Positions 331 to 23,849 of a stretch of DNA of 64,000 nt are shown piece after piece. How positions within the stretch are numbered: the first letter of the stretch is position 1; each line of letters begins with the position of its first letter. The notes under the pieces were generated by a model. The model saw only the letters and a list, made by a program, of their open reading frames with translations. It did not search any database and was not told the origin of the DNA. The position numbers and the translations under genes are program-made. The DNA lies in assembly GCA_030055465.1 (NCBI GenBank), contig JASFYF010000001.1, positions 11,399 through 75,398 of the forward strand, given 5' to 3'. The stretch comes from Candidatus Nezhaarchaeota archaeon (GTDB lineage Archaea; Thermoproteota; Methanomethylicia; Nezhaarchaeales; WYZ-LMO8).

Positions 331-537
331 TTATTGGTCTTCATACTGTTTCACCTGTCTTTTAAGAGTCTTCAGCATCTCCTGCACGCGGTTAATTCTA
401 TCCACCTGCTTTTCCCATGAAAATTTCGTCCTTGGCTTAAGCTCTGTAAAGTATGTTCGTCTCCATTCAAAGACTACTTCGCCCAGTTTCTTATCCTCAA
501 CCCTTTCAAGTATTCTCCTCAGTTTCTCCTCAGCCAT
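331..537 (-). CDS. Small charged helical protein, 68 aa, at the end of flavoprotein operon 1
   Basis: The frame is open further upstream, but the likely start is the ATG at 537 (protein begins MAEEKLRR), with an AGGAG eight bases upstream; the ATG at 543 is the alternative. The product is rich in Lys, Arg and Glu, predicted mostly helical, with an FEWRR stretch in the middle and no cysteines or membrane segment. It follows the flavoprotein stop codon at 551 by 13 bases, so it is co-transcribed. A relative with the same FEWR core lies in the same place after the second flavoprotein operon (14294-14462), so it looks like a true operon member, perhaps an assembly factor or small subunit. No family recognised. 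Confidence 0.65.
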   Translation of the reverse strand: MAEEKLRRILERVEDKKLGEVVFEWRRTYFTELKPRTKFSWEKQVDRINRVQEMLKTLKRQVKQYEDQ

Positions 538-550
538 TTTCATCACTCCT

Positions 551-2047
551 TCACCTGTATATGTACCAAGCCCCAGTCTCCATGATTGAGTCAGGGTCCA
601 AGGTGTTTTGGAAACTCCACATAAGCCTTTGGAAGGTTTCGGAGATCCCCATTTCACCCGGTCTTTGAACAACGTATTTAAGATCTACCGGAACGCCTTC
701 ATCCTTCATGGACTTCAATAGCTTAGGTACGAAGCGTGGATTTATCCTGAGAAGGACCGGGTCTGTTGGAGAACCTGCAGCCACAGCCTCCCACATAACG
801 TAGTGGCCACCATCTATCGGATAGAGTATCAAGCTTCTGTTCAAAGCCGCATCCACAAGGTCAGGGTCACGTACATCGGGGTCTTCTAACTGGAGCTTCG
901 TCAGTATCTTGAATAGCCTAGGCACCGATTTTACTGGTATCCACAGCTGCCCAGCAATATGGCCAACAGAACCGGGATGCTGAAAGTACTTCTGGGTATA
1001 CTCTGAGTAAAACGAGGAAGCCATATTAATATGCGTATCCACGAACATTTGGTAGAACGGTAGCTTGTCGGTTATTATCCTACCATCGTATTTTTCGGCT
1101 ATCTTTCTTACAACGCTCTCTTCGTACTCAACCCTCCTCTTAGTCCCCATAAATGTGAGTATCAACATGAATTCAGGGTGAATTCTCACAGATCTATCAG
1201 CAGCTTCCTCAAAATCAAGGCCATAGAGACAATACTTGTAGCCTGAGTAGAAGCTGGAACCGGTCCCTATCTCCATGTGTAGGAAGTCTATGTAAGCTTT
1301 GATTCCCTCTTCAATGTCATCGAAGGCTACCCAGAACGGCTTTAATACCTCATCGAGTGGGTGGCATCTAACCGCCAACGTCGTTACAATGCCTAGATTG
1401 CCCTCGGAGTACCTGGGAAAATGCCCTAAGTTAGGACCGGGCCCATACGGCCAGAATGCCTCGTTCAGGTATACATCGGCTAGAGACCCTGTTCTGAGTA
1501 TTGTGGCGTCGGGGAGCACTATTTCCCAGCCTATGATCTGCTCGTCAACAAGTCCTATTCTTGCACCAACCTTGTTTGCATTGCCATGGACCCAGTGGGA
1601 CCCTATATGAACTGTTGAAGGTCCCCCTGGTTGATGTATAAACATACGCCTCTTTAGGAGTTCGCATTGAAGTTTGAGTATTGGCACGCCTGTCTGAACC
1701 GTAGCTACCAATGTGTCTTCATCTATCGAGATTATACGATCCATTCTCTTTAAGTCGACGAGAATGCCTCCCCTGTTAGGGATCGTCCAACCCCTCATGT
1801 TTATTCCGGAGCCCATTGGAATGAGAGGAACCTTGAACTGCCTTGCTATCTTAACTATGTTCTGGACCTCAGCTGTGGATGATGGCATTACAACTATGTC
1901 AGGGCTCCTAGACTTCCACCCGAACCTAAGGTAGGTAGCATGATCTCTTGAATATCCTATCGTTATCTCAGGCTTATCGGAGACATACTCTGGTCCCACA
2001 ACATCGGCTAGCACCCTAGTTAACTTCTTCCTATAATCTCCTTTCAT
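551..2047 (-). CDS. VAO/PCMH-superfamily FAD-dependent oxidoreductase, subunit A of module 1
   Basis: A 498-residue flavoprotein. An FAD_binding_4 domain spans about residues 45-230, with a PMGSG pyrophosphate-binding turn at 77-81, a GGP segment near 141 and a YGPGPN loop at 201-206 followed by a GNLGIVT strand. The C-terminal half is the substrate-cap domain. The YGPGPN...GIVT region resembles 4-phenol-oxidising members (p-cresol methylhydroxylase, vanillyl-alcohol and eugenol oxidases) more than lactate or glycolate enzymes; that similarity is by eye. No signal peptide, so probably cytoplasmic. Its start overlaps the stop of the Fe-S protein gene, and the second FAD protein and an SCP2-like protein lie upstream, suggesting one complex that oxidises an organic hydroxy or phenolic compound and hands electrons to Fe-S clusters. 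Substrate unknown. Confidence 0.88.
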   Translation of the reverse strand: MKGDYRKKLTRVLADVVGPEYVSDKPEITIGYSRDHATYLRFGWKSRSPDIVVMPSSTAEVQNIVKIARQFKVPLIPMGSGINMRGWTIPNRGGILVDLKRMDRIISIDEDTLVATVQTGVPILKLQCELLKRRMFIHQPGGPSTVHIGSHWVHGNANKVGARIGLVDEQIIGWEIVLPDATILRTGSLADVYLNEAFWPYGPGPNLGHFPRYSEGNLGIVTTLAVRCHPLDEVLKPFWVAFDDIEEGIKAYIDFLHMEIGTGSSFYSGYKYCLYGLDFEEAADRSVRIHPEFMLILTFMGTKRRVEYEESVVRKIAEKYDGRIITDKLPFYQMFVDTHINMASSFYSEYTQKYFQHPGSVGHIAGQLWIPVKSVPRLFKILTKLQLEDPDVRDPDLVDAALNRSLILYPIDGGHYVMWEAVAAGSPTDPVLLRINPRFVPKLLKSMKDEGVPVDLKYVVQRPGEMGISETFQRLMWSFQNTLDPDSIMETGAWYIYR

Positions 2048-3270
2048 TATCTGCCACCTTCCCTTTTCAAGGCTTTACTTAGAAGTTCAACAATATCGTA
2101 AACTTCTATGTTGAAGTCCTTTGAGGCCTTTAATAAGTTGTCTTTACAATGTGGACATGCAGTTGCAAGAACGTTTACACCTATGTACTTTGCCTCCTCA
2201 AGCCGTTTCTGCGCAACCCATGATGCAAACTCAGGATAGGTGTATGCTACTCCGCCTCCAGCGCCACAACACCAAGCATTCCTTCTGTTTCTCAAGAACT
2301 CCACATATTCCACTCCTTCAATGGACTTAACTAGATTTCGGGGGCTTTCAAAGATCAACAGGTGCCTGCCCAAGTAGCAGGAGTCGTGATACGCAGCTTT
2401 GGGAGGGTTATCGAGATTATTTAATTCAAATCTAAGCCTCGATGCCTTTTCCTCAAGGAGCTGCGTTACATGTAGAAATTCGAAGTCTGGTTTTTTGAGT
2501 CCATAACGATCTGCATCATTAAACATCTTTAAGCATTCCGGACAACTGAATACAACCCTCTTTGCTCCTGCCTCTTTCAACGCATTTATGTTCTCTTCAA
2601 GCAACTTAGCCCCCTCATCAACCAATCCTAACCTGGCTAACAGGCTTCCGCAGCACTTCTCCGATCTAAGAACTCCGAAGTCCACTCCTAGCTTTTTAAG
2701 CAAGTCTATTGTAGCACTAGCTATCTCATGTCTCTTATAAGCGGTAGTGCACCCGACAAAGTACATAGTTTCCGCCCTCGCGGAGACCCCTCTAAGGTCT
2801 TCAAGCAACATGGAGTAATGCGTGCTGTTAACACAGTATGGATTTCCATGCTTCATTATGTTGTCCCGTAGAGCCTTGTGTTGAGGTAACGGTCCTACGT
2901 TCTCAACGTATCCTTTGCGTAGGCGTTCTATTATGAAGAGGGGATAGCAGCGCCCTATGAACTCTCCCCAGACATGGCAGGCACCACACGTAGTGCACGT
3001 ATACAGTATGTGGGAAAGGTTATCGCTCCACATCAATTTACCCTCCACGAGCCCCCTAGCTAGCTCCATTTTACCAGATGCGTAATAGGCGTCAAACCGC
3101 CATCTATCACCTGAAGGGCATATTGAGACAAACCTCTCATCTCTGCAGTCCGGGGCAAACACGTAGTGACAGTACCTGCACTTGTAGCATCTCAGCAGGA
3201 CCTCATAAAACTCGTCAAGTTCCTCTCTAACTAAAGGCCAGACATAATCTCTTAATTTCCCCATAAACAT
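2047..3270 (-). CDS. CCG-domain Fe-S oxidoreductase (GlcF/HdrD-like), module 1
   Basis: About 407 residues from the ATG at 3270, which overlaps the upstream stop as TGATG and has AAGG upstream; the open frame extends to a GTG at 3285. The N-terminus has a CxxCxxC followed 16 residues later by CPS, then a second cluster starting CTTCGAC. The C-terminal two thirds carry two CCG motifs (CCGSLL and CCGAGG), the family hallmark of HdrB/HdrD, GlcF and LutA proteins that bind Fe-S clusters and relay electrons. It sits between two FAD subunits as GlcF sits with GlcD/GlcE. In the second cluster the usual fourth Cys is Gly, while a Cys appears six residues later. Likely the electron outlet of the flavoprotein complex. 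Confidence 0.88.
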   Translation of the reverse strand: MFMGKLRDYVWPLVREELDEFYEVLLRCYKCRYCHYVFAPDCRDERFVSICPSGDRWRFDAYYASGKMELARGLVEGKLMWSDNLSHILYTCTTCGACHVWGEFIGRCYPLFIIERLRKGYVENVGPLPQHKALRDNIMKHGNPYCVNSTHYSMLLEDLRGVSARAETMYFVGCTTAYKRHEIASATIDLLKKLGVDFGVLRSEKCCGSLLARLGLVDEGAKLLEENINALKEAGAKRVVFSCPECLKMFNDADRYGLKKPDFEFLHVTQLLEEKASRLRFELNNLDNPPKAAYHDSCYLGRHLLIFESPRNLVKSIEGVEYVEFLRNRRNAWCCGAGGGVAYTYPEFASWVAQKRLEEAKYIGVNVLATACPHCKDNLLKASKDFNIEVYDIVELLSKALKREGGR

Positions 3271-4706
3271 CAACCTTGAAAGCACAATTTACCAGGATTG
3301 CAAATATTGTTAGGATCTACTATCCTTTTGAACTTCCTTATGACTCGGAAATAGGCTGGACACCTTTCGTACACTATATCAGCCCATAGTGGGTAGGGCT
3401 TGTCGAAGAAAGCGCCTGAAATCATCAACTCCTTTACGGCTCCTCGAACCATTGTTCTCAGCTTGTTGAGGTCTGCTTTAGATTCAAAACTAAAGGAAAC
3501 TTGACAGTAGGATCTTCCTACACCAACGGGTATGGCTGCCACGCCAATTTCGGCTTTGGAATATTTATATCTTTCAGCCACATTGAAGATAGCATTTTCA
3601 AGTGCCTTAATATTCCGTGTAAGAGCCATGAAAGGTATGGTAACGCGACGACCTCTATGCCGCGCTTTTCTAAGCCACCCTTGGGGTCTATTTATTTCAT
3701 GCAAAACTTTTTGAGGGGCGTTACTTACCCCCTTTAATTCGCTGTCTAGTTTAAACCCCATTTTCCTGGATAAGTCTTCAAAATCCTCGCGCTCAAACTC
3801 CACTTCTCGACTTGGGCCTCTCAGCGTAAGGATCACCAAGTATTTCGGCATAAGTTTCAGGACATCAGAAACATCCTCGATTCTCTCTGAGAAGAGCAAA
3901 GCAGCTTCAAATGCATTCAACACCATAAGTTCTTTTGAGGATCTTTGCCACATTATTTCTCTTAGCATCTTATGTACATCATCGAAATCATTAAATTCTA
4001 TGAAGAAAACTTCGTTGCATTCCCTCACAGGTTTCAGCTTTACCGTTCCCTCTACTATGATGCCCAAAGTCCCTTGAGAGCCGAACCACAAGTAATCCAT
4101 TAAGCCTGCAAACGGTACTCCAAAAGCTGATGTGTAAGGCTGCTTTGCTACAGGAATCGATGCCACACCTGTCTTGAGAATCTCGCCTGAGGGCAGCACC
4201 ACGGTCATGGTTGTCATGGTGTCGATACTATACCTAGGCCAAGAGAATAATGCCTGATAGTCCAAGTACGCAGAGATCACTGATGCCTTAGAGGGCCACT
4301 CGTAAGTGGTAAGCGGCCTTAAACCGCGTTTTGAGGCTTCTTCATTTAAATCATCGAAGGTCACGCCAGGCTGAACAGTTGCCATCCATGAATCTTCATC
4401 GAGAACTAAGATATTCCTTAGGCCCGATAAGTCCAACACGACGCCAGGCTCGGAAGGCACGCTTAAGCCTTGATTGTTAAGGCCAGTGGAGAAGGGAGTT
4501 ACGGGTACTTTGTACCTGTTGCACATCTCAAGGACGCTTTTGACGTCATCAATCAACGAAGGCCTTACAACGCAGAGGGGCTTACAACTGTAATAGAGGC
4601 TTGCGTCCTGAGAGTAGCGACTTAGAGTTTCTTCGTCGCTAAAAACCTCTGAAGATTCGAGCCTCGCATCAAGCATTTTAATTATCGTCGAATCTTCGCT
4701 AATCAT
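3270..4706 (-). CDS. VAO/PCMH-superfamily FAD-dependent oxidoreductase, subunit B of module 1
   Basis: 478 residues from the ATG at 4706, chosen because GAGGAGGA lies just upstream and the ATGA overlaps the preceding stop; the frame is open to 4733. The FAD_binding_4 domain has a PFSTG turn near residue 70 and a GSQGTLGIIV strand near 220. The C-terminus carries VDPNNICNPGKL, the standard end motif of glycolate/lactate-type FAD oxidases. It is distinct from subunit A (about 20-25% alike by eye) but a close paralogue of the gene at 17224-18666 and of the truncated one at 49584. Two unlike FAD subunits plus a CCG Fe-S protein recall GlcD/GlcE/GlcF. The substrate-specific role of A versus B is not visible. 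Confidence 0.87.
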   Translation of the reverse strand: MISEDSTIIKMLDARLESSEVFSDEETLSRYSQDASLYYSCKPLCVVRPSLIDDVKSVLEMCNRYKVPVTPFSTGLNNQGLSVPSEPGVVLDLSGLRNILVLDEDSWMATVQPGVTFDDLNEEASKRGLRPLTTYEWPSKASVISAYLDYQALFSWPRYSIDTMTTMTVVLPSGEILKTGVASIPVAKQPYTSAFGVPFAGLMDYLWFGSQGTLGIIVEGTVKLKPVRECNEVFFIEFNDFDDVHKMLREIMWQRSSKELMVLNAFEAALLFSERIEDVSDVLKLMPKYLVILTLRGPSREVEFEREDFEDLSRKMGFKLDSELKGVSNAPQKVLHEINRPQGWLRKARHRGRRVTIPFMALTRNIKALENAIFNVAERYKYSKAEIGVAAIPVGVGRSYCQVSFSFESKADLNKLRTMVRGAVKELMISGAFFDKPYPLWADIVYERCPAYFRVIRKFKRIVDPNNICNPGKLCFQG

Positions 4707-5218
4707 AGCTTGTCCTCCTCTACAATCCTCCATAGATCAGGTCTTCGCTCTACTAGTTCTTGCATGCATGCAAAGATTTCAAGTACCGTCACCCAATCAC
4801 TGAGGGAGATGCCATTGGAGTGTCTTACCCTTACTTTCGGATCGCTTAAAGCCCAGATAACTCTATGCTTGCCCAACACGAGTTCCTTGAAAAGGAATAT
4901 TGGGAGGGCTACTTCGAGTATGGGGTTTTTAGCAGGCCTCATTTCAACTTTGAACACTCCCTCCTCGCTCAAGCTAATGGTGTAGACGCTCCTACCTTCA
5001 ACATCCACCTGTATGAGGTCTCTCCCGATTAATATCGAAGAGGGATACCCCCGAGCTCTTGACCAGCCTGTCGGATCGAAGGCTAAGTTCGGCGGAGGAT
5101 ACGGACCCGGCCCCGGATAGGGACAAGGCCCCCCGCAGAAAGTCCTGAACGGTTTAAGGCGCCTCTTGAGCTCCTGATCATCGTTTAAGTAGTTCTCTAG
5201 TTCACGCCAAAAGGTCAT
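4703..5218 (-). CDS. SCP2-like small protein, first gene of flavoprotein operon 1
   Basis: The frame is open to 5320, but an ATG at 5218 has GAGGATT upstream and lies about 38 bases from a clear TATA box, and alignment with the paralogue at 18671 starts here; this gives a 171-residue protein. It has an N-terminal helix, a Pro-rich GGPCPYPGPGPYPPP segment, a GYPSSIL motif, then about 105 residues whose order (beta strands, LFKELVLG, WALSDPKVRV, SLSDWVTVLEI) resembles the SCP2 sterol-carrier fold, a hydrophobic-ligand binding domain. The SCP2 assignment is my inference, not a certain match. Placed first in the operon and retained in module 2, it may present substrate to, or act as a subunit of, the flavoprotein complex. 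Confidence 0.6.
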   Translation of the reverse strand: MTFWRELENYLNDDQELKRRLKPFRTFCGGPCPYPGPGPYPPPNLAFDPTGWSRARGYPSSILIGRDLIQVDVEGRSVYTISLSEEGVFKVEMRPAKNPILEVALPIFLFKELVLGKHRVIWALSDPKVRVRHSNGISLSDWVTVLEIFACMQELVERRPDLWRIVEEDKL

Positions 5219-5251
5219 ACAATCCTCGTTTATAGATTTATTCATATATTT

Positions 5252-5259
5252 TATATAAA
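5252..5259 (-). promoter_or_regulatory. Archaeal TATA box for flavoprotein operon 1
   Basis: TTTATATA on the minus strand, centred about 38 bases before the ATG at 5218. With the usual 25-27 base spacing, transcription would start near 5230, leaving a leader of about 12 bases that contains the GAGG site. Confidence 0.6.
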
Positions 5260-5328
5260 AGTTTCGCAAATAATTGTCAATAAAATTAAAATTCACATAA
5301 TTGTCGCAATCAATAATCAAACAAAAGA

Positions 5329-5336
5329 TTTAAAAA
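5329..5336 (+). promoter_or_regulatory. Probable TATA box for the molybdopterin enzyme gene
   Basis: TTTAAAAA, centred about 41 bases before the ATG at 5374, in the AT-rich divergent region shared with operon 1. An AGGTTGA eight bases before the ATG would serve as ribosome binding site. Confidence 0.45.
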
Positions 5337-5373
5337 TTCAGATTCTGTCAAATTCTTTGTAGGTTGACTAATT

Positions 5374-7842
5374 ATGGCTAAAGAAAAAAACGTAGAAACC
5401 AAAAAGGGCTGCTGCTACTTCTGCACGAGCATTGGTTGCGCGGTCTTAGTTAATGTAATTGATGACCCTAACAGCCCCGGAGGTAAAAGAATAGTAGGCG
5501 TTGAACCGGACCCCAGCATATCCGGACCCAACGGTCAAGGATGTCCAAGGCTTGCTTTTGCCCCTGAGTACTTCTATCACTCCATGAGGATAAAGTATCC
5601 ATTAAAACGCGCCGGCAAGCGAGGGGATGGCAGATGGCAGAGGATATCGTGGGATCAAGCCCTCGACGAGATAGCCTCTAAGCTCAAGGAGATAAGAGAA
5701 AAGTATGGGCCTGAAGCCGTCGCCGCCACGCATGGTACTGGAAGAAGCGGCTCCGAGGACTGGTGCATGACCCGCTTCATGAACCTGTGGGGCAGCCCCA
5801 ACAGAGTGGGCCCGATAATATGTTCAGCCCCCTCAGCTCAAGTGGACCAAATGGTGTTTGGATGGTACGACGTGGCGTCAAGCTATGCGGCACCAGGAAA
5901 AGAGCAATCCACAACGATAGTCAACTGGAGCAGGAATAGGCCCGATTCACAGCCTGTTGCTTGGCCGCAAATGATGGAGCAGTGGAGGAAAGGCGCCAAG
6001 TTCATAGTTGCCGACCCCAGGTGCATCGAGGTATGCAAATACGCTGACATATGGCTTCAACCCAGGCCTGGAACAGATTTAGCAATAGTTTTGGCTTGGC
6101 TTCGAATAATAGTTTACGAGGGGCTTTACGATCGCGACTTCGTTGTGAGGTGGACCAACGCTCCATTCCTGGTACGAACAGATAAGATGAAGATCTTAAG
6201 GGAGTGGGACTTAAATGAAGGCGGAAAAAAGGAGAACTTCGTAGTGTGGGACTTAAACTCCAAAGGACTAGCGGTATGGAACTCCAAGTCACTTACTTAT
6301 GATAAGCCGGGCGTTAGTCCAGCCCTTGAAGGAGAATTTGAAGTTACCGGTAAGGACGGCGAGAAGATACAATGTAAAACCGTGTGGACTCTCCTGAAGG
6401 AGAGGATTGAACCTTACACCCCCGAGTGGGCAGAAGAAGTATCATGGGTTTCAGCCCGCAAGATAAGGGAGTCGGCATACACCTATGCTAAATCAAAGCC
6501 TGCAATATTCATCAAGGACCTAACGCCGGAGCAGCTGCCGAATGGCACTCAGTTCCTCTTCGTGCGCAACATACTGAGAGCCATAACCGGCAACCTCGAC
6601 GTCGAGGGTGGACACGTCTTAACCGGGCCTCCTCCTATAAGGGCTAGGGGCGAGATGTCCCTAGACGAGAAGTTCCCAACACCTGAGCAGAGAAAGAAGC
6701 AGATCGGCGCAGACAAGTTCAAGCTATTGACGTACCCAGGTTACGATCTGATAGCTCCAAACGTGAAGGAAGTGTGGGGCATGTGGCCAGGTGCTTGGAG
6801 GCAAGCAGATGCTCACCCTCCATCCGTGTTCCGGGCTATGCTCACCGGTAAACCATATCCAGTTAAGGCATGTCTCATAACTTACTCAAATCCTATGGTG
6901 GCGTTCCCGAATTCAAGGCTGGTCTTCGAGGCCCTCATGAGCTGTGAGCTTCTGGTAACTCATGAAATAGTGTGGACGCCGGCTGCAATGATATCAGATT
7001 ACGTGCTTCCATCCACATGCTGGATGGACAGGCCGGAGCTCAACACTATGGGCGCATCGGGGGACATAAACGTAATAATAGCAGGTGAAAGAACCGTACC
7101 TCCATACTACGAGGCCAGAGACGGGTACGACTTCTGGCGTGGCCTGGGGATTAGGCTGGGGCAAGGGGATTACTGGCCATGGAAGACGCTTGAAGAGGCC
7201 CTTGACTATCGGTTTGAACCGATGGGCGTAACGTTCCAAGAGTTCATAGAGATGGGTAGGATATACTTCCAACCAGTGAAGCACAGGAAGTACGAGGAGA
7301 AAGGCTTCGGCACTCCTACGCGGAGGGTTGAGATATGGTCCACGATATTAGAAGAGCTGGGGTATGATCCATTACCCCACTGGAGGGAGCCTACAATAAG
7401 CCCCATAAGCACGCCGGAGATAGCGAAAGAATACCCGTTGGTACTCACTTCTGGTGGAAGACACCTGCCGTTCCATCATTCAGAGTTCAGGCAGCTAGAA
7501 TCCTGCAGGAGACAGAGGAAGTGGCCGATGGCTGACATTCATCCAGAGACGGCTAGACAATATGGGATAACGAACGGAGACTGGGTGTGGATAGAAACCC
7601 CTATAGGGGCAGTCAAAATGGTTGCCAGGGTAACACCGGGAATACACCCGCAGGTAGTACATGCAGAACATGGATGGTGGTACCCGGAGGAGCCAGGGAT
7701 AATGCCAAACCTATTTGGCGTGTTCAAGTCTAACATAAACGTGGTAGTAATGGATGACCCGAAGTATTGTGATCCTGAAATGGGACTATACCCGTTTAGA
7801 ACACAACTGTGCAAAATACGTAAAGCTGAGATGGGCCCATAA
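5374..7842 (+). CDS. Molybdopterin (bis-MGD) oxidoreductase, DMSO-reductase/CISM family, cytoplasmic
   Basis: 822 residues. An N-terminal [4Fe-4S] motif uses Cys14, 17, 22 and 57; the spacing CxxC-x4-C is one residue longer than the usual CxxC-x3-C. Molybdopterin domains follow. The segment WGSPN...C150SAPS matches the place where the metal ligand sits in polysulfide/thiosulfate reductase-type enzymes, so Cys150 is the likely Mo or W ligand. A C-terminal dinucleotide-binding domain is at about 690-820. There is no twin-arginine signal, and no Fe-S or membrane subunit is adjacent, unlike respiratory members; stand-alone cytoplasmic relatives include formate dehydrogenases, acetylene hydratase and pyrogallol transhydroxylase. 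It is divergent from operon 1 and followed by an NrpR-like regulator. Substrate unknown; a role in the same carbon pathway is inferred from position. Confidence 0.9.
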   Translation: MAKEKNVETKKGCCYFCTSIGCAVLVNVIDDPNSPGGKRIVGVEPDPSISGPNGQGCPRLAFAPEYFYHSMRIKYPLKRAGKRGDGRWQRISWDQALDEIASKLKEIREKYGPEAVAATHGTGRSGSEDWCMTRFMNLWGSPNRVGPIICSAPSAQVDQMVFGWYDVASSYAAPGKEQSTTIVNWSRNRPDSQPVAWPQMMEQWRKGAKFIVADPRCIEVCKYADIWLQPRPGTDLAIVLAWLRIIVYEGLYDRDFVVRWTNAPFLVRTDKMKILREWDLNEGGKKENFVVWDLNSKGLAVWNSKSLTYDKPGVSPALEGEFEVTGKDGEKIQCKTVWTLLKERIEPYTPEWAEEVSWVSARKIRESAYTYAKSKPAIFIKDLTPEQLPNGTQFLFVRNILRAITGNLDVEGGHVLTGPPPIRARGEMSLDEKFPTPEQRKKQIGADKFKLLTYPGYDLIAPNVKEVWGMWPGAWRQADAHPPSVFRAMLTGKPYPVKACLITYSNPMVAFPNSRLVFEALMSCELLVTHEIVWTPAAMISDYVLPSTCWMDRPELNTMGASGDINVIIAGERTVPPYYEARDGYDFWRGLGIRLGQGDYWPWKTLEEALDYRFEPMGVTFQEFIEMGRIYFQPVKHRKYEEKGFGTPTRRVEIWSTILEELGYDPLPHWREPTISPISTPEIAKEYPLVLTSGGRHLPFHHSEFRQLESCRRQRKWPMADIHPETARQYGITNGDWVWIETPIGAVKMVARVTPGIHPQVVHAEHGWWYPEEPGIMPNLFGVFKSNINVVVMDDPKYCDPEMGLYPFRTQLCKIRKAEMGP

Positions 7843-7907
7843 GGCTTTCACCATTTCTCTTTTCTGTACTAATCCACAATTCGAATTCAATTTTTAAGGT
7901 TGAGACC

Positions 7908-8870
7908 ATGAGTGTCGACTACAAGAACGATATCTTGAGGTACCTGTATTTTAATGGTGGCAGGGTCAGCTCACTTAAATTAGAGAAGGAGCTTGAAGAA
8001 AGGGGCATAAAGCTTAGCGCTAGCGCCATTAGATATCACTTGAGAACATTAGAGTCTTTAGGCTACGTAACGACGACAAGAAGGGGCAGCATGATAACTG
8101 AGAGGGGTATAGAAGAAATCTGGAGGTCTAATGTTCATAAACGCATAGGCTTTTTCAGAGATTTTATGGCTGAAATAATTTACAATACCAAGTTCGATAT
8201 TGAATGCGGTGAAGGCGTAGTAAGCGTTAATACTACGATGGTTCACAGATCAAGACTTGACGAATGTCTAGAGTTTATGCGCAAACTAAAGGGCACGTGT
8301 CTTTGTATATACCCAAAGATAAAGATAGCATATGAGGGGGAAAGAGTAGGCAATGTTGTAATCCCCAAAGAGGGGGCCTGTATAATCACGTTGTGTAGCC
8401 TCATATTCGATGCTGCCTTATTTCATTTCGGCATACCTCTGACCCAGATACTGGCAGGCTACGTAGAGCTCGAAGAATGGTGTATGACAAGGTTTACCGA
8501 CGTCATAATGTTCGAGGGAACATCCTTGGACCCTATAATAACGCTTCTAAGCCTCAAACAGACATCTATAGCAAAAACACCCATCACCGGCAGAGGAGTT
8601 GTGATTGGCGAGCTCATAAAGGTTCCCGAATCCTCTTTCAAAGACTTAAAACTGGTGTTTTCCAAACTTGAAAAGCTAAATATAAGATGTCTCAAAACTT
8701 TTGGATCTGCTGGCAAGCCGATTTTAGGAATAAATGTTGGTGAGAACGTGGGTGTGGTATTTAGCGTCGGCATAAATATGGTGGCTCCAATACTTGAACG
8801 AAACATACCGTGTAAGATACGTGGAGCCACGACGATGATGGATATAGGTGACCTCGATGAAGAGCTCTGA
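7908..8870 (+). CDS. NrpR-family transcriptional regulator (winged helix plus one effector domain)
   Basis: 320 residues. A winged-helix domain (HTH_12 type) covers about 5-68, including the recognition-helix stretch SASAIRYHLRTLESLGY. An NrpR/DUF128 effector domain fills about 75-310. Methanogen NrpR represses nif and glnA and is released by 2-oxoglutarate; many NrpR proteins have two effector domains, whereas here there is one. The gene starts 65 bases after the molybdenum enzyme and probably shares its transcript, so it may control that enzyme rather than nitrogen genes, although glnK, amt, GOGAT and glnA lie 25-33 kb away. Its 3' end overlaps the microprotein start at 8857. Family assignment is fairly sure, target is not. 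Confidence 0.8.
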   Translation: MSVDYKNDILRYLYFNGGRVSSLKLEKELEERGIKLSASAIRYHLRTLESLGYVTTTRRGSMITERGIEEIWRSNVHKRIGFFRDFMAEIIYNTKFDIECGEGVVSVNTTMVHRSRLDECLEFMRKLKGTCLCIYPKIKIAYEGERVGNVVIPKEGACIITLCSLIFDAALFHFGIPLTQILAGYVELEEWCMTRFTDVIMFEGTSLDPIITLLSLKQTSIAKTPITGRGVVIGELIKVPESSFKDLKLVFSKLEKLNIRCLKTFGSAGKPILGINVGENVGVVFSVGINMVAPILERNIPCKIRGATTMMDIGDLDEEL

Positions 8871-8982: not shown

Positions 8983-9005
8983 AAAACAAAAATAATGAAG
9001 GGGTA

Positions 9006-10412: not shown

Positions 10413-10418
10413 AGAAAA

Positions 10419-10631: not shown

Positions 10632-11209
10632 GATTTCACTTCTCCATCATTTTTATTTTATTGGATTCTATATTAATTATCATCGGTGCAGAATTTATAA
10701 ACTTTAAGATAAGATTGATTAGCGCTAATTTTTCAAGTAAATCATTATCTTTCAGGTTAAGAAAAACTTAGAGTCTCGCAAACTAGCATTAACTCTTATT
10801 GTCAATACCCCGAAATGCACCAGCTATTCTCCTAGCACTTCAATATGGCGAAGTTTAGTAATCTGGTACAAGTCCTACTTCACTCCTTTAGGATAAGCCC
10901 AGGCGTTTTGCTAAAATCCGTTGTACTATGAATATACAATTCAAGGCCTTGTTTCCATTCCACCATTTCTACATAAGCTACTTCTATGATTTATTCGACT
11001 TCTTTGCTTCGGAGTCAGCTAGAATCCTATGCACAAAATTGTTGCATAGGTATATGTTCGGGCAAACCATAATAAATGAATTAATCAAAGCCGTGAAGTT
11101 TTCACAACTACTTAAGCCTCATAAACATGTCGCAACCCATAGTTTGCAAGGAAACAAGGAGAAGCGAACGTCCTATGATCCCACCTCTCCTATATGAGGA
11201 TGAAGGGCT
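10632..11209. other. 578-bp intergenic stretch
   Basis: AT-rich near the symporter operon start, with TATA-like TTTATAA around 10690 that may serve the 10631 gene on the minus strand. A plus-strand ORF at 10928-11197 has no recognisable protein character. Nothing else is supported. Confidence 0.5.
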
Positions 11210-12716
11210 TCACCACCATCTTTGCATGATTACTTTCCTGTCGGTGAAGAAGTCCACCGCGTCCATCTGTCCATGCAGTACTCCGAAGAAGCTCTTCTTG
11301 CGGCCCGGAAACGGGAAGAACTGCTGTGGTTGCGCTACAGCCATGTTTATGGCTACGTTGCCGGCCTGCACACGCCTAGCGAACTCTCTCGCCCACTTCC
11401 CGCTGGAGGTGTATATGGTTCCAGTATTACCGTACTTGCGGTTGTTGGCTATCTCTAGGGCTTCATCGAAGGTTGAGGCCTTAAGTATCGGCATCACGGG
11501 CCCGAAAACCTCCTCTTGTGCTATCTCGCTGTCCGGGGCAACATCGGTAAGTATGGTTGGGCCCAGGTAGAAGCCACCGGAGTATTCATCATCGACCTTT
11601 AGGCTTCTGCCGTCCAGAAGCAGCTTGGCGCCCCCCTCAATGGCCCGCTCTATCATCCCGCTTACCCTCTCCACGGACTTGCTCGAAGCCAGCGGACCCA
11701 TATCAGTCGATTCTAAGAGCTGATACCCCACGCGTTTCTTCTTGACCCTCTCAACTATTTTGTCCACAAAGTTCTCGTAGGCATTGCCCACCCGTTATGA
11801 GTAGGCCTGGAGCTAGGCACCTCTGACCGGCCATATCGAAGAAGCCTCCAACAATGTTTTCTACTGATGGCTCAGCTATGGCATCCGGCATTAAAACAAC
11901 GGGATTCTTCGCTCCGCATTGACACAAGGCCCTCTTACCATGTGCGCTCGCCAGCGCGTACACCTTTTCTCCCGCAGGCGTGGACCCAACAAAAGTTACT
12001 CCTGAAACCTCTGGGTGCGTTACAAGTGCTTGGCTGGTCGAAGCATCTCCATGGACTAGGTTGACGACGCCTGGCGGATACCCCGCCTCCTCGAAGAGGC
12101 CTACAAATATGGTTGTTGGCACGGGGTCCAGCTCACTCGGCTTTACGATAACGGTGTTGCCCAGCGTTATGGCCAGGGGAACGAACCACATGGGTATCAT
12201 AACTGGAAAGTTAAATGGCGTTATCACGGCGAAGACGCCTAGGGGTTCCCTGACGACCTCCATGTCTATCTCCGGGTCTGCCTTGGCCAAGTTCATTATC
12301 TTCCTGTTGAACGCTAGGAGATGTGGAGCACCAAGAGCGGCGTCAACGGCTTCAACTGCCCTACGCACCTCGGCCACACCCTCCTTAACGGTCTTCCCCA
12401 CGTTCTGGGCCACTATAACCGCAAGATCCTCCACCTCTTGCTCAATCAACGTTTTAAGCTTCACCAAGTATTGCAGTCTATCGAACACCGGGAGGTTAGA
12501 CCACTTTTCGTAAGCCCGTGCAGCCGAGCGAACCGCTTCTTCAACATCCTTTGTACCGGATATGGGAACCTCGGCGATAACCCTACCCAAACCCGGGTCA
12601 TAGGATTTAAGGCATTTAACACTGTCGGATTCAACATGTCTGTTATTTATAAAGTTCGGTAGCAAGCCATATCCTTCCGAAAATTGCCTCCTAGCTGAGT
12701 TCAACATCCTCTTCAT
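11210..12716 (-). pseudogene. CoA-acylating aldehyde dehydrogenase (methylmalonate-semialdehyde type), frameshifted
   Basis: Two overlapping frames together encode one complete aldehyde dehydrogenase. Residues from 12716 carry the cofactor-binding stretch ITPFNFPVMIPMW, VKPSELDP and the catalytic GQRC; the frame then fails after GLLIT, and translation of the other frame resumes with VGNAYENFVDKI and runs to the normal C-terminus at 11210. One extra base in a GGG run (plus-strand CCC at 11791-11793) explains everything. The PFNFP and GQRC context matches methylmalonate/malonate-semialdehyde dehydrogenases, which make acyl-CoA from a semialdehyde without a general-base Glu. Either a recent pseudogene or a base-call error. 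Convergent with nothing; the MFS gene lies upstream on the same strand. Confidence 0.85.
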
Positions 12717-12752
12717 TTCTACATAACCTAATTATTAAATAATTTAATGAAT

Positions 12753-14057: not shown

Positions 14058-14293
14058 TATGGCAAAACCCGACGTGCAGAGTACAAGGTACTCGCGGCTT
14101 CTAACTTTAAGCGTGGAAATCCACCTCCATAGAAACGTTGTGTATTAACGCGGCTTCTAGGTAGATGAGGCAGAAAGTCATGGTACGGCTACCTGCGGAG
14201 TCAAGTATTATAAAGTAAAAGGACATGAAGAAAAAGTAAGGATGATTTCTTAGAAAAAAGAATTTTTGAATTCGCTTTTAGGACCTTCTGGCC

Positions 14294-14462
14294 TCACTTG
14301 TTTGGGATTTGAAGGGCTTTTCGACGCTTATACAGGGCCTCTTGAATATGTTTAAAGCTCTCCATTGCTATGTCGTCCTCAGTCTTGGTCAACGGACGCT
14401 CTCGGTACTTCTTTTTCCTCCACTCGAATATCCATTCGAAAAAAGGCTTTCTCTGATGTCAT
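14294..14462 (-). pseudogene. Small charged helical protein at the end of operon 2, with a T6 frameshift
   Basis: An ATG at 14462, preceded by AGGAGG, opens a frame that after MTSEKAFF is out of phase. Skipping one T in the run of six (plus-strand AAAAAA near 14438-14443) yields a 55-residue protein with EWIFEWRKKKY, matching the FEWRR core and size of the protein at 331-537, and ending at TGA 14294. It follows the flavoprotein gene at 14477 exactly as its paralogue does. Either a +1 slippage site, a recent mutation or a homopolymer sequencing error; the conserved downstream frame favours a recent or technical cause. Confidence 0.6.
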
Positions 14463-14476
14463 CTTTATTTACCTCC

Positions 14477-15976
14477 TCATGTTGTGGCGTACCCCCAGTT
14501 GGGTAAAGATGCCGGGAACAGCGTCGCCGGCGAGAATATGTCGTCTGGGTCTACTTCTTTTCTGAACGAGAACGCAACTTCGACTAGGCTTGGATTCATT
14601 GTGAGGGGCTGCGCTCCCTGATATGAGGAGTAAAATCCATGTGCTCTCAGGTTCTCTTTAAGTTTCGCATCTAGACGAGCTATGTTTTGAAGTATTACGG
14701 GATCTTGAGTGTGGCCTTCTGATGTTATTTCCAACCTGCATATATGGGCTCCCTCCGCGGGATGAGCTATGGCTCCCAGGCTGAACTCTGCGCGAGGATA
14801 ATTGTTTGGGTTTCCAGCCCACTCGTCCTCTAATATTGTCTTTGCGAAGATCTTGTAGACTTCAGGCATGGTCTCCATTGTGCACATGACGTGAGCACCT
14901 ATAGCTGGCTTTCTCCAACCCCAGTATTTTATTGCACCCCAGCTACACATGTTCGCAGTAGATGCTATTTGAGTGTCATCGAATATTCTCCAAGGCGGAA
15001 ACCTTTCAGATATGAATCTCCCTCCATTTCTTCTCGCGATCTCCCTCATGATTTTTTCCTCGTATTCGACTCTGCGCTTGGTGCCGCACGTTGAGGCTGC
15101 AAGCATGAACTCAGGGCTGAACCTGTTCACCCTGTACTGAGAAAAACCTGCATCGCATGCGTAGGACGAGTACTTGTGACCGGCGTAAAACAGAAGTCCA
15201 TGGCCTATCTCCCTCTTGGCTATCTCCTCTAAGGCCTTGCAGACGTTGTCTATGTCGTTGAAGTAGGATATGACGGTCCGGAACTCCGTGCCCAGCGGCC
15301 AACACTTAACTGATCCTTTAGTAACAACACCCATTATTCCGAAAGGCCTAGACATGTACTGAGCAGATGGACCAGGTCCGTGAGGCCAATAGCTGTTTTC
15401 AGTGTCAAACTCGTTGGACCAGGTACCTATGCGGTAGATATTTCCATCAGCCATTACGATCTCGTATCCCAGTATTTGTCTGTAGTTCCAACCAACCTTA
15501 TTGTCGCCCCTGTTATCTATACCGTGGCATATGATGTTTGAAACTACAGAGACTGTTGAAGGCGCTCCGGGAACAGGGACGTATAGCCCCCTTTTCTGGA
15601 GCTCCGAGTTTAACATTGCGAAAGTAACCCCTGGCTCTACGACGGCTCTGAAGTTTTCCTCGTCTATTTCGATTATCTTCTTCATCCTCTTGCTCATGTC
15701 AATGAGTATCCCTCCACGTCTAGGAATGTGCCAGCTCCTAGTATTCACACCCGTGGTGGCAACGTAGATTGGAATCTTAAATTCCCTGGCCAGAATAACT
15801 GTTTCTTGGACCTCTGCAACGCTTGAAGGTATCACTACGTAGTCGGGGGTTCGGGGCCTTCGCAAAGTGCTTAAGGTGCCCACGTCTCTCGAGTAGGATA
15901 CAAGTATCGCGGGGTCGTTTGAAACCCATTCGGGCCCGACAATCTTTTTCAACTTGTTGTATATGGCGTCATCCAT
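14477..15976 (-). CDS. VAO/PCMH-superfamily FAD-dependent oxidoreductase, subunit A of module 2
   Basis: 499 residues, clearly paralogous to the subunit at 551-2047. FAD_binding_4 domain at about 45-230 with the TTGVNTRSW turn near 74-82, GAPSTV near 137 and WPHGPGPS near 193; C-terminal cap to about 490. In place of the GSG turn of subunit A1 it has TTG, so the flavin pocket differs. The ending EVDPDDIFSPATL follows the VDPxxI pattern of the family. Cytoplasmic, no signal. Ten bases downstream of the Fe-S gene. The divergence between modules 1 and 2 suggests different substrates of one general class. Confidence 0.88.
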   Translation of the reverse strand: MDDAIYNKLKKIVGPEWVSNDPAILVSYSRDVGTLSTLRRPRTPDYVVIPSSVAEVQETVILAREFKIPIYVATTGVNTRSWHIPRRGGILIDMSKRMKKIIEIDEENFRAVVEPGVTFAMLNSELQKRGLYVPVPGAPSTVSVVSNIICHGIDNRGDNKVGWNYRQILGYEIVMADGNIYRIGTWSNEFDTENSYWPHGPGPSAQYMSRPFGIMGVVTKGSVKCWPLGTEFRTVISYFNDIDNVCKALEEIAKREIGHGLLFYAGHKYSSYACDAGFSQYRVNRFSPEFMLAASTCGTKRRVEYEEKIMREIARRNGGRFISERFPPWRIFDDTQIASTANMCSWGAIKYWGWRKPAIGAHVMCTMETMPEVYKIFAKTILEDEWAGNPNNYPRAEFSLGAIAHPAEGAHICRLEITSEGHTQDPVILQNIARLDAKLKENLRAHGFYSSYQGAQPLTMNPSLVEVAFSFRKEVDPDDIFSPATLFPASLPNWGYATT

Positions 15977-15986
15977 AACTCTTCAC

Positions 15987-17210
15987 CTACAAACCTAAAG
16001 CCTTTGCCAACAGCTCCATGACGTCATAAGTCTTCATGTTCAATCCGAGCACGCCCGCTGTCTCTAGGAAGTTGTGTTTGCAGAATGGACATATAGATGC
16101 GATTACGTTGGCTCCCGTGCTTTTTGCCTCTTCGAGCCTCATTGAGGCCACTTGCAAAGCGTAGTCTTTGAATTCAGCTCGCACTCCTCCACCGTAACCG
16201 CAGCAGAACGAGTTCAGCCTATTCCTAGGCATTTCAGCGAGATCAATGCCTATGGCCCTCAATATTTCCCTTGGAGGCTCGAACATTCGGAATAACCTTA
16301 AGTGGCAGGGATCATGGTATGTGCTCTTCTCTATAGGCCTCTTCAACTTTATTTTGCCCTTTCCGGCCAGTTCTTTTATTAGAGGTGCGAGCAGCTGCGT
16401 AACGTGAATTACTTCGAGCGGCAGCTTCAATCCGTAGCGCGGAGCCTCTCTAAACGTCTTGTAGCAGCCTGCGCATGATACTATAAGCTTCTTAGCTTTC
16501 ATCTTGCGTAAAACCTCGATGTTATGGGCTAACGTCTCCACACCGCCTTTTACTTGTCCAGTCCTGAAGAGCGGGCTTCCGCAACACCATTCTTCTCCGT
16601 CCATGACAGTAAACGGTATCTCTAAGTGCTCTAGGACTTTGACTGTGGCTTGGGCTATCTCCATGCGCCTGTAAGAGGTTGTGCACCCAACAAAGTAGAC
16701 AACCCCGGACTCTATCAATGACACATCTCGCGGAGCGAAGCCGGAAGGGAGCCACGCAAAGCGGTTTTGGTGCGGCTCACCATATGGATTGTGGTTTACC
16801 TGTACGCTCTCCGCAAACTTTTTATGAGCTGGTAGAGGTCCTTGACCTACTTCAACCGCGTACTCTCTGAGCTTTTCAATAGCCTTCAAAGGGTAACCCC
16901 TACCCGAGAACATGCACCACGCTTCGCATGCCCCACATATTGTACAAGTGTAAATTATGTGCCTAACCCTATCAGACCATTTTACCTCTCCTTCTAGGAG
17001 GGCACGTATCAGCTCATTTCTGCCGCTGGCGTAGTAGGCCTCAAACTTGAACACCTCTCCCGAGGGACACTGATAGTGAAACCTGTGGTCAACGGTGTCG
17101 GGCAAGTACACGTGTTGGCAGTACTTGCATTTAACGCAATGAGTCCAGACCTCTTCATAGTAGTCTTCCAACGAATACCTAGTAACCGGCCATATGTAGT
17201 CTTGAGACAT
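15987..17210 (-). CDS. CCG-domain Fe-S oxidoreductase (GlcF/HdrD-like), module 2
   Basis: 407 residues with the same plan as the module 1 protein: CVKCKYC, then CPS 16 residues after the third Cys; second cluster CTICGACEAWC; CCGSPL and CCGYGG in the C-terminal part, with CAGC and CPFC ends. Here the second cluster keeps the usual fourth Cys (AWC), and the later position that is Cys in module 1 is Gly. It would carry electrons from the FAD subunits to ETF, a quinone/thiol reductase or another acceptor. Located between the two FAD genes with gaps of 10 and 13 bases. Confidence 0.88.
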   Translation of the reverse strand: MSQDYIWPVTRYSLEDYYEEVWTHCVKCKYCQHVYLPDTVDHRFHYQCPSGEVFKFEAYYASGRNELIRALLEGEVKWSDRVRHIIYTCTICGACEAWCMFSGRGYPLKAIEKLREYAVEVGQGPLPAHKKFAESVQVNHNPYGEPHQNRFAWLPSGFAPRDVSLIESGVVYFVGCTTSYRRMEIAQATVKVLEHLEIPFTVMDGEEWCCGSPLFRTGQVKGGVETLAHNIEVLRKMKAKKLIVSCAGCYKTFREAPRYGLKLPLEVIHVTQLLAPLIKELAGKGKIKLKRPIEKSTYHDPCHLRLFRMFEPPREILRAIGIDLAEMPRNRLNSFCCGYGGGVRAEFKDYALQVASMRLEEAKSTGANVIASICPFCKHNFLETAGVLGLNMKTYDVMELLAKALGL

Positions 17211-17223
17211 GAAATGTTACCTC

Positions 17224-18666
17224 CTACCAGAGCATGAGCTTACCGGGATTCATGATGTTGTTTGGATCAAAAGACTTCTTCACCTTCCTTAGGATGCGGT
17301 GCCACCTCTCCGCTCTCTGGTAAACCGCTGAAGCCCACAACGGGTACGGTTTATCGAAGTGAGCATTCATCTCAACAAGCCTGTTCCCCGCTTCAACGTA
17401 TAATTCTCTGACTCTTTTGGTGTCTTCAGGGTCTTCAGGATCTCTATGAAAGCTGAACTCGCAGTGCAGTGGCCCTGCCTTTATCGGTACTATTGTGAAG
17501 CCCACATCTTCTCTGGAGTAGCCGTGCTTCTCAGCCAGCCTGAGCACCTCAGCGAGGAAAATTGGTACGCGCTTCTGAATGGTAATGAAGGGGATCGTGT
17601 TTCTAGCCCCCTTGTACCTCGAGGTTTTTTCCCATCCTCCAGGCTCTTCAACCTCTTGAAGTATCCTTTCAGGTGCATTCTCAAGCCCCGGCACATAAGG
17701 CTCAACTTTCATGTTTAGCTCGAGAGCCAGATCCTTTAGATCTGCCTCCTGATAATCAACTTCATCCTTTGAGCCCCTGAGCACATGCACTACGTACCAC
17801 GGAGCTAACTGAGCTCTTACGTCTTCAAACTCTTCAGGATCCTTCGACATCAACAAAGCCAGATCGAAGCTGTTCAATATGAGCAGCTCTTCGCCTGTTT
17901 CAAGACGCCTGATTCTATGCATGGCCCTCAGCGCATCATCCAACTTCTCAAACGGCATGAACAGGACTCTATTTACCTCTGGGACGTCCTTAAGCTTAAG
18001 GTGTCCCGCCACGACAATGCCCAAGGTACCTTGAGATGCATGCCAAAACTTCGACAAGAAGAGAAGAGGACCCTCGCCCGGCTCGTAGGGATCTCTGGCA
18101 CCTTCAATACCCCACATGCCGCTTCTTAAAACACCACAGGTTCGAGGCACCACCGCTGCAATAGTCATCACAAGCTCCGTTTCATACCTTGGCCAAGCGT
18201 AGAAGGGAACATGCTCTAGGGCAGTTATGAGGGCCGAAGCAGAGGCTGGGTGCCCCACAGGCATTAACGCTCTAAACCCGCGCTTCTTTGCCTCTTTTTG
18301 CAGGACAGAGAACGTCAGACCAGGTTCAACCAATGCAACGCGGGCTCTGGTATTGACCTCTAAAAGCCTGTTAAGCCTGCTTACGTCCACGACCACTGCT
18401 GGAACCGATGGAACGGCGGCCCCCTGATTGTTTTTGCCCGTAGAGTAAGGAACGAGCGGCACCAGGTATCTGTTGGCAAACAACATTATCTCTTGCACCT
18501 CTTCCAAGCTACCCGGCTTTACTACGCAGATCGGCATTTTTGGGGAAACAAAGCTGTTGTCCTTTGAGTACTTTTCAAGGTCCTTGGGGTCTGTCAAGAC
18601 GTGCTTCGACCCTACAATGGCACTCATATTTTCCTCTATCACACTCTTAGATGCAGCCATAATCAT
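17224..18666 (-). CDS. VAO/PCMH-superfamily FAD-dependent oxidoreductase, subunit B of module 2
   Basis: 480 residues; paralogue of 3270-4706. PYSTG turn near 75, ASQGTLGIVV strand near 213, and the C-terminal FDPNNIMNPGKL signature. Start at the ATG at 18666, with a GGAGGGG about 12 bases upstream; an ATG two codons later is equally possible. It follows the SCP2-like gene by four bases. Same GlcD/GlcE-like pairing with subunit A as in module 1. Confidence 0.87.
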   Translation of the reverse strand: MIMAASKSVIEENMSAIVGSKHVLTDPKDLEKYSKDNSFVSPKMPICVVKPGSLEEVQEIMLFANRYLVPLVPYSTGKNNQGAAVPSVPAVVVDVSRLNRLLEVNTRARVALVEPGLTFSVLQKEAKKRGFRALMPVGHPASASALITALEHVPFYAWPRYETELVMTIAAVVPRTCGVLRSGMWGIEGARDPYEPGEGPLLFLSKFWHASQGTLGIVVAGHLKLKDVPEVNRVLFMPFEKLDDALRAMHRIRRLETGEELLILNSFDLALLMSKDPEEFEDVRAQLAPWYVVHVLRGSKDEVDYQEADLKDLALELNMKVEPYVPGLENAPERILQEVEEPGGWEKTSRYKGARNTIPFITIQKRVPIFLAEVLRLAEKHGYSREDVGFTIVPIKAGPLHCEFSFHRDPEDPEDTKRVRELYVEAGNRLVEMNAHFDKPYPLWASAVYQRAERWHRILRKVKKSFDPNNIMNPGKLMLW

Positions 18667-18670
18667 GGCG

Positions 18671-19222
18671 CTACAACCCCTCCACTAGGTTCCACAATGC
18701 AGGGTCGCGATCTACAGCTTCTTGTGCGACCACGAGAACCTCAAGTATTGTTATCCAATCGGAGAGCCCTATGCCCTCTCTCCACATCAATTTAACGCGT
18801 TCGTCAGCCAAAGCCCATACGACCCTATACTTGGTTAGAAGCATGTCTTTGAAGAGGTCCAGCGGCATCTCAATGTAAAGGCAGGGATTTTCAGCTTTTC
18901 CATCTCTGATCGTGAACACGCTATTCCTCAGCGAGACAACCCACGAAAGTTTCTCTGGAACCACTATCTGAATGAGATCGTTCTCGTGAAGTATAGTCGA
19001 TGGGTACCCCTTCTTTTCGGTCCAACTACTTGGATCCCAAGGGCCGTTGTATATTGGTCTGGGGTAGGGGCCTTCCCCTGGATAGGGAACGGGCCCTCCA
19101 TGCCATTCTGGAAATCCGCCCAATCTTCTCTTAAGCTCAAGGTCTTTGTTCAGCAGTTCTTCCCACTTCTCTCTTATTGAAAGATGCCGAGACAATTCAT
19201 GGCATCCCTTAATATTGCGCAT
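18671..19222 (-). CDS. SCP2-like small protein, first gene of flavoprotein operon 2
   Basis: Up to 183 residues from the ATG at 19222; a TTG at 19195 with AAGGGATG upstream fits the promoter spacing better and would give 174. It shares with the 4703 gene the ELKRRL helix, a GGPVPYPGEGPYPRP segment, GYPSTIL and the C-terminal block LFKDMLL, WALADERVKL, GLSDWITILEV. The strand/helix order resembles the SCP2 hydrophobic-ligand fold (inference). Conservation as first gene in two operons shows that it belongs to the flavoprotein system. Confidence 0.6.
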   Translation of the reverse strand: MRNIKGCHELSRHLSIREKWEELLNKDLELKRRLGGFPEWHGGPVPYPGEGPYPRPIYNGPWDPSSWTEKKGYPSTILHENDLIQIVVPEKLSWVVSLRNSVFTIRDGKAENPCLYIEMPLDLFKDMLLTKYRVVWALADERVKLMWREGIGLSDWITILEVLVVAQEAVDRDPALWNLVEGL

Positions 19223-19227
19223 CAAGT

Positions 19228-22336: not shown

Positions 22337-22375
22337 GTTTAATCATTACATAACGCTAAAAGTGGAGGTATACTC

Positions 22376-23824: not shown

Positions 23825-23849
23825 CTGCAGCTCACGTCGTTCACGCATC

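Follow-up and report, generated by a model that had tools for sequence, protein, structure and literature searches.

Archaeal gene modules pairing a FAD/Fe–S/FAD core with a predicted SCP2-fold protein: a candidate anaerobic dehydrogenase complex

Introduction

The anaerobic oxidation of hydrophobic and aromatic compounds, at steps for which aerobes employ oxygenases, is an open question, and a trimer of two flavin adenine dinucleotide (FAD) subunits and one iron–sulfur (Fe–S) protein is a current candidate for the anaerobic activation of benzene. This FAD/Fe–S/FAD trimer was proposed in 2026 for anaerobic bacterial degraders, and excerpts of the two reports describe it as GlcDEF-like and as comprising the ORM2 "Magic" proteins 24–26 and BzS1_12970/80/90 (PMC13101534, PMC13416013). 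Its order and domains are given in one of these excerpts as FAD_binding_4 plus FAD-oxidase_C, CCG, and FAD_binding_4 only (PMC13416013). A second described system of interest is UbiT–UbiU–UbiV, for which part of a published account states that UbiT is an SCP2 protein and, with respect to U32 proteins, reports the cysteine pattern CX12CX3C for UbiV (PMC6747719).

Here, we analyzed a stretch of 64,000 nucleotides (hereafter, the window) from a Candidatus Nezhaarchaeota archaeon, which corresponds to positions 11399–75398 of the single contig (C1; 1,024,082 bases) of an assembly rated 67% complete and designated G000. The window harbors two modules, M1 and M2, in which genes for two FAD subunits (A and B) and a CCG 4Fe–4S protein (C) are accompanied by genes for an SCP2-like protein and a tiny helical protein, as well as a further module of another type, M3. 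Other sampled genomes are referred to as G313, G265, G316, and G013; among these, G313 is distant from G000 and belongs to another class of the same phylum. With about even confidence, we read M1 and M2 as encoding an anaerobic FAD/Fe–S/FAD dehydrogenase complex with an SCP2-fold partner and a hydrophobic, probably aromatic or alcohol-type substrate. In these archaeal modules, the trimer comes with an SCP2-fold partner of its own and with an aldehyde dehydrogenase; in sister modules, a related core is linked to a UbiU-like protein. The function of such trimers, and the part that selects the substrate, thereby become open to experiment, and the modules may help explain the oxygen-free attack on stubborn chemicals.

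Results and Discussion

Gene Content, Order, and Distribution of the Modules

M1 (331–5320) and M2 (14.3–19.2 kb) both run along the minus strand: the SCP2-like gene comes first, then B, C, A, and the tiny gene, and adjacent genes overlap or sit within ~13 bp of each other. In M1, the predicted SCP2-fold protein (4703–5320, start codon uncertain), recognized by alignment and structure modeling, carries the Pro/Gly-rich segment GGPxPYPGxGPYPxP and is followed by B (3270–4733; 487 amino acids [aa]), C (2047–3285; 412 aa, two CCG domains, and a 4Fe–4S region with seven of eight cysteines), A (551–2047; 498 aa), and the tiny protein (331–546; 71 aa), the latter identified as an open reading frame (ORF) and by alignment against shuffled sequences. 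M2 comprises the SCP2-like protein (18671–19225; 184 aa), B (17224–18666; 480 aa), C (15987–17210; 407 aa, cluster cysteines retained), A (14477–15976; 499 aa), and the tiny gene (14294–14462). The FAD subunits of both modules were assigned by Pfam and trees: B matches FAD_binding_4 and FAD-oxidase_C, and A matches FAD_binding_4 only, while C matches CCG twice along with weaker 4Fe–4S matches. The best NCBIfam match of the CCG proteins is TfrB, and HdrB is also matched. M1 and M2 share 37% identity in A, 37% in B, 45% in C, and 47.5% in the SCP2-like protein. An earlier note on this DNA had described M1 and M2 as two full five-gene copies; the order is confirmed in both, but the tiny gene of M2 is not intact as assembled, given that the frame resembling M1 (FEWIFEWRKKK..., 14294–14458) has no start codon and lies one base off the ATG at 14462. 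This frameshift, at ~14440, sits in a run of six T. It is possibly an assembly indel error, as is a frameshift in the aldehyde dehydrogenase gene described below.

The same gene set was found in G313, whose operon keeps this order except for an aldehyde dehydrogenase gene inserted between those for the SCP2-like protein and B. Upstream and on the same strand are genes for an AOR and a zinc alcohol dehydrogenase, as well as two small genes. This recurrence of the SCP2-like/B/C/A/tiny order outside the class of G000 shows it to be more than a product of chance, and the co-occurrence of the accessory genes with B–C–A that the earlier note had proposed to look for is thereby seen in a second genome. 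The SCP2-like profile matched two of the 398 sampled genomes of the phylum (G000 and G313); it also matched one of 40 in the class of G000, one of 229 in the class of G313, and one of 11 in the genus of G313. A profile built from the A subunits of M1, M2, and G313 scored 858–951 bits in G000 and G313, with none of the other listed matches exceeding 149, in a survey that scored at most three candidates per genome. No match was obtained in a genome-contig collection with A or with the SCP2-like alignment, and SCP2-like searches were also empty in viral contigs (alignment), plasmids (protein), and PDB sequences (alignment). The M1/M2-type module is real, rare, and conserved.

The SCP2-Like and Tiny Proteins

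No Pfam or NCBIfam model matched the SCP2-like proteins. An AlphaFold2 model built from three rows (pLDDT 75, pTM 0.69) was submitted to Foldseek, and all 10 matches at E ≤ 0.001 were SCP2-type entries (3cnu via its other entry, 3bn8); VIA aligned the model with 2cx7 over 114 residues (Z 11.3, 2.7 Å). The predicted structure supports an SCP2 fold for this accessory protein, in agreement with the earlier note. The conserved Pro/Gly-rich segment falls in a low-confidence part of the model (residues 35–70), and a docking role for it would be a guess. Regarding the tiny proteins, the alignment score between M1 and the open frame of M2 was equaled by 0 of 2,000 shuffles, that between M1 and G313 by 1 of 2,000, and that between M2 and G313 by 12%.

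Phylogeny and Motifs of the Subunits

The closest familiar counterpart in composition is GlcDEF of Escherichia coli, which also combines two FAD subunits with one CCG 4Fe–4S subunit; the gene order is, however, D–E–F there and B–C–A here, and the SCP2-like and tiny genes occur only in the modules. In a first tree of FAD proteins, the A subunits of M1, M2, and G313 formed a clade (support 100/99), as did those of M3 and of Agrobacterium vitis plasmids (100/99), while the B subunits of M1, M2, and G313 grouped at 99/97 and, together with A. vitis, at 96/94. These A and B clades, two FAD proteins from two-gene modules, and three rows of the vanillyl-alcohol oxidase (VAO) family made up a 14-row group (95/94). 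The VAO rows are plasmid proteins that share 57–64% identity with the query, a stretch of vanillyl-alcohol dehydrogenase, and two of them have a cytochrome c gene adjacent. A second FAD tree, to which G265 and G316 were added and from which GlcE, G358_L030, G358_L024, and G225_L028 were left out, split types I and II both in A (100/99; 100/100) and in B (100/99; 100/97). Here, the 14-row group was not recovered and the VAO placement received a support of 56/42, whereas the 10-row clade holding GlcD and D-lactate dehydrogenase (LDH) excluded A and B at 97/98. The truncated B of M3 entered no tree, and the C part of YdiJ was used in the first C tree only. The C trees also recovered the type I clade of M1, M2, and G313 (97/96 and 100/99), which is common to A, B, and C, and paired M3 with A. 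vitis (91/90 and 85/94); a Georgenia row joined the latter pair in the first C tree (95/95) and not in the second. Within type I, A of M1 paired with A of G313 (100/99) rather than with A of M2, and M1 and M2 are, therefore, old paralogs.

If the modules simply encoded a 2-hydroxyacid dehydrogenase of the glycolate/lactate type whose FAD subunits are paralogs, this would explain the GlcDEF-like composition, the rank of TIGR00387 (glcD) as first or second among the NCBIfam matches of A and B, although with scores far under its cut-off, and a structure model of A that is closest to D-LDH. The approximately unbiased (AU) test, however, rejected a grouping with GlcD/LDH for A (P = 0.0009) and for B (P = 0.0176), as well as a grouping of B with GlcE (P = 0.0376). 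HxGDGNxH and EHGxG are the metal-site motifs of GlcD-type enzymes. They were found in none of the nine A/B rows, whereas EHGxG was present in six of eight GlcD/LDH rows, the YdiJ part and GlcE being the two without it. By these comparisons, A and B fall outside the glycolate/lactate dehydrogenases, and we consider this explanation improbable, disfavored by trees and motifs alike. The GlcDEF resemblance drawn in the earlier note is thus borne out in composition and not in ancestry, its suggestion of hydroxy-acid substrates is disfavored by the missing GlcD metal motifs, and the outcome it named as refuting, that is, A and B inside GlcD/LDH and no accessory co-occurrence elsewhere, was not found.

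The relationship to VAO and p-cresol methylhydroxylase (PCMH) is less sharply drawn. The modules share with these enzymes the FAD_binding_4 domain and a loop, GPGP in A, that aligns with their YGxGP loop, and the AU test did not reject the groupings of A with VAO (P = 0.32), of A with B (P = 0.16), and of A, B, and VAO (P = 0.28). In a PDB profile search with A, entries of the VAO family came first (E = 9.8e-35), followed by D-lactate dehydrogenase (1.1e-31). A Tyr–Arg pair (YRTH) binds the phenolate in VAO/PCMH enzymes; it occurred in three of three VAO rows and in none of the nine A/B rows. The modules also differ in having a second FAD subunit and in using a CCG protein in place of cytochrome c: a VAO plasmid relative sits with genes for cytochrome c, an aldehyde dehydrogenase, and a hydroxyaryl decarboxylase, whereas CXXCH, the cytochrome c motif, was absent from ORFs of at least 40 aa around M1–M3 and the G313 module, save for the cluster cysteines of M1 C. 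The GPGP loop, which the earlier note had read as PCMH-like, does align as proposed, but it is not diagnostic since FAD proteins of two-gene FAD/CCG modules in this archaeon and a relative carry GFGP, and it was dropped as a VAO/PCMH marker. A closeness of A and B to VAO/PCMH is possible on these sequence comparisons, the VAO clade being not rejected by the AU test and not recovered in the second tree. Given the mixed VAO and D-LDH signals and the missing YRTH, we prefer to describe A and B simply as FAD-linked oxidase subunits that fall outside GlcD/LDH. Two-gene FAD plus CCG modules were observed at L010, L011, L012, L072, and L073 (G000 and relatives), with the GFGP loop in that of L010; they are possible ancestors of the three-subunit modules.

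Proposed Function

In the dehydrogenase reading, each full module would form a single cytoplasmic complex in which the diverged FAD subunits A and B are bridged by the TfrB/HdrB-like C, with the tiny protein as a small helical subunit. The SCP2-fold protein would deliver or hold the hydrophobic substrate, probably an aromatic or alcohol-type compound, which would be oxidized anaerobically with transfer of a hydride to FAD. Electrons would then pass to C, which may take the place held by cytochrome c in p-cresol methylhydroxylase, and from there to a carrier, such as ferredoxin, a quinone, or EtfAB in the case of M3. We infer that the carbonyl product would be handed over to an aldehyde dehydrogenase resembling methylmalonate-semialdehyde dehydrogenase. 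Such a gene lies within the G313 operon; among solved structures as well as in NCBIfam, its product comes nearest to methylmalonate-semialdehyde dehydrogenases, with a score just under the cut-off of the NCBIfam model (416.6 against 448.5 bits). In G000, it lies between M1 and M2 as two overlapping ORFs (11210–12716, minus strand), frameshifted as assembled, whose halves are 44% and 52% identical to the G313 enzyme. The aldehyde dehydrogenase partner and the dehydrogenase superfamily suggest oxidation and count against a reductive enzyme (e.g., for enone or aromatic-ring reduction) to which the CCG protein would donate electrons, a very improbable reading to which the similarity of C to TfrB and HdrB, both involved in reductions, lends some weight.

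Several observations weigh against the dehydrogenase complex as proposed. The SCP2-containing order has been seen at three loci only, from two genomes, and the AORs near the G000 and G313 modules are only 33% identical. The model of A, obtained with a pTM of 0.70 from 12 rows that are mostly two-gene FAD paralogs, is nearest to D-LDH (Z 28.6) and then to eugenol oxidase (26.6, the highest VAO-type value), in a VIA list that re-scores the matches of Foldseek. In addition, the first CCG domain is devoid of its cysteines in the C proteins of G313 and A. vitis, and one cluster cysteine is missing from that of M1; because of these gaps, the electron path is not uniform.

M3 and Type II Relatives

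The third module, on the plus strand, comprises B (49503–50408), C (50419–51714), and A (51718–53316), followed by EtfA (53276–54355; Pfam ETF and ETF_alpha) and EtfB (54352–55158; ETF). Its A is of type II, grouping with A. vitis, G265, and G316 in the A trees. By profile and alignment, B retains its C-terminal part only, spanning positions 203–484 of the 486 in the B profile, and no separate N-terminal half was found in the G000 genome with that profile. No SCP2-like gene was detected at M3, the only two matches in the G000 genome being those of M1 and M2, and no ORF of at least 25 aa resembling M1 tiny was found just after it (best score 25, shuffle mean 27–29). The earlier note had counted M3 as a third variant of the same module; as an equal copy it was rejected in view of the short B, the accessory genes not found, and the EtfA/EtfB genes. 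The truncated B abuts a reversed ORF (~49.58 kb) with weak similarity to SSF transporters (E ~4e-4) and no Pfam match. At L014 (~8570–8600), an AIM24 gene without its N-terminal part meets another reversed ORF; both junctions could be either rearrangements or assembly errors.

A tblastn search of plasmids revealed a B–C–A operon on plasmids of A. vitis/Allorhizobium ampelinum (L038, 11962–16456; L039, 7962–12456), annotated merely as FAD-binding and Fe–S proteins. Its three related subunits follow the order of the modules and are of type II, but no SCP2-like or tiny gene is present among the annotated neighbors. The L038 operon lies ~6–11 kb from P450, aldehyde dehydrogenase, and AMP-binding genes, and that of L039 some kb from P450 genes. 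A wider A profile recovered, among the 398 genomes, A–B–C modules in G265 (L069, 2260–8407) and G316 (L070, 7586–13886), genomes from two different families within the phylum; in both, a U32 gene of UbiU-like type comes after the module, and then a second gene, whose product bears cysteines. Trees and profiles thus support the view, put forward in the earlier note, that the divergent A subunits are members of a larger family, with types I and II within it. A partial type II-like A was also seen at a contig end in G013 (L071, 70–1254), beside a CrtC/lipocalin-like gene.

These sister modules bear on an alternative in which a hydrophobic, quinone-like or aromatic molecule would be hydroxylated or otherwise modified without O2 in the manner of UbiT–UbiU–UbiV, the SCP2-fold protein acting as a UbiT-like carrier, the U32 protein and its partner hydroxylating, and the trimer supplying or removing electrons. 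The A–B–C order with both further genes is common to G265 and G316, and the five proteins are 60–72% identical between them; for the U32 protein, the top NCBIfam match is UbiU, although at 88–92 bits it is far under the cut-off of 440. The cysteine spacing of this protein, CX6CX15C, and that of the second protein, CX13CX3C with an upstream Cys, resemble those of U32 proteins and UbiV. The second protein, however, belongs to no Pfam or NCBIfam family, so the label "UbiV-like" rests on position and cysteines, and the SCP2-like protein, common to type I modules, likewise matches no family model and never shares a locus seen here with a U32 gene. PF01136 (U32) has no match in G000, at 67% completeness, or in G313, as opposed to three in G265 and two in G316, and the flavoprotein trimer is not named among the UbiTUV parts in the portion of the literature cited above. 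We regard this alternative as unlikely. A broader proposition, slightly more doubtful, is that an unnamed family of O2-independent machines for C–H/C–O oxidation is built on the FAD/CCG-FeS/FAD core, with swappable UbiT-like (SCP2) or UbiU/UbiV-like (U32) partners, spread by gene transfer between archaea and bacteria, and with the benzene flavoprotein as one branch.

A direct counterpart of that putative benzene-activating flavoprotein, acting on an unfunctionalized hydrocarbon, is again an improbable reading for M1 and M2. Gene order and domain split are identical, and ORM2 protein 25 is described in an excerpt as lacking conserved cysteines in two motifs (PMC13101534); cysteines are similarly missing from one CCG domain of G313 C. 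The likeness is one of layout; the bacterial trimer sits beside CoA/beta-oxidation genes, whereas no CoA-transferase, MaoC, or benzoyl-CoA gene was recognized in 331–20863, where no systematic search was made. Part of the other report also mentions distant homologs from species for which benzene is not a substrate (PMC13416013). The words SCP2, sterol carrier, and U32 are absent from the main texts of both reports, and among open-access titles and the beginnings of abstracts no other description of an archaeal, SCP2-linked, or U32-linked trimer was found.

Genomic Surroundings

Archaeal models for the small and large subunit rRNAs (SSU and LSU) and RNase P beat their clan rivals in G000, and the host is therefore archaeal; the SSU model on its own also matches bacterial controls. 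The G+C content is 0.453 in M1, 0.457–0.481 in the genes between M1 and M2, and 0.491 in M2, compared with 0.528–0.577 elsewhere in the window and 0.513–0.543 in four other sampled stretches. Upstream of the window, low values persist over a TRAP-type permease gene (DctM, 0.491) and the next gene (0.442), and the AOR before the window is at ~0.53. M3 is host-like (0.528), and the G313 module (0.429) lies above its surroundings (0.377–0.397). The low G+C of the M1–M2 region, together with the deviation in G313, fits the acquisition of this region as an island.

Within 10 kb of M2, we also found UbiD and UbiX (22376–24413), two Amidohydro_2 proteins, and a TAXI TRAP transporter, a context that fits an aromatic substrate for the modules. 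The nearest PDB entries of the Amidohydro_2 protein at 24533–25477 are aromatic-acid and related decarboxylases, and the stretch as a whole (21139–29101) looks like an aromatic-acid decarboxylation locus.

Divergent from M1, with 53 bp between the ORFs, lies a gene for a Mo/W-bis-pterin enzyme (5374–7842, plus strand) whose nearest solved relative is acetylene hydratase. Related enzymes stand beside the G000 and G316 modules, and at E ≤ 1e-130 they occur in 8 of the 398 genomes, including three (G000, G265, and G316, not G313) of the four with full-length type I/II A. The remaining five (G001, G002, G004, G005, and G007) are relatives of G000 in the same family or order with no A match at E ≤ 1e-48, and the G265 copy, which by eye belongs with this wider set, is ~17 kb from its module. 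For these reasons, the enzyme was set aside as a specific module partner and its link to the trimer is suggestive only. Another acetylene-hydratase-like Mo/W enzyme is encoded at G000:C1:383352-384782, and an NrpR-type regulator with an NRD1_2 domain (7908–8870) adjoins the one next to M1. Farther along the window, the region 34245–35360 encodes a protein with a MazE-antitoxin-type domain and, after it, a PhoU domain.

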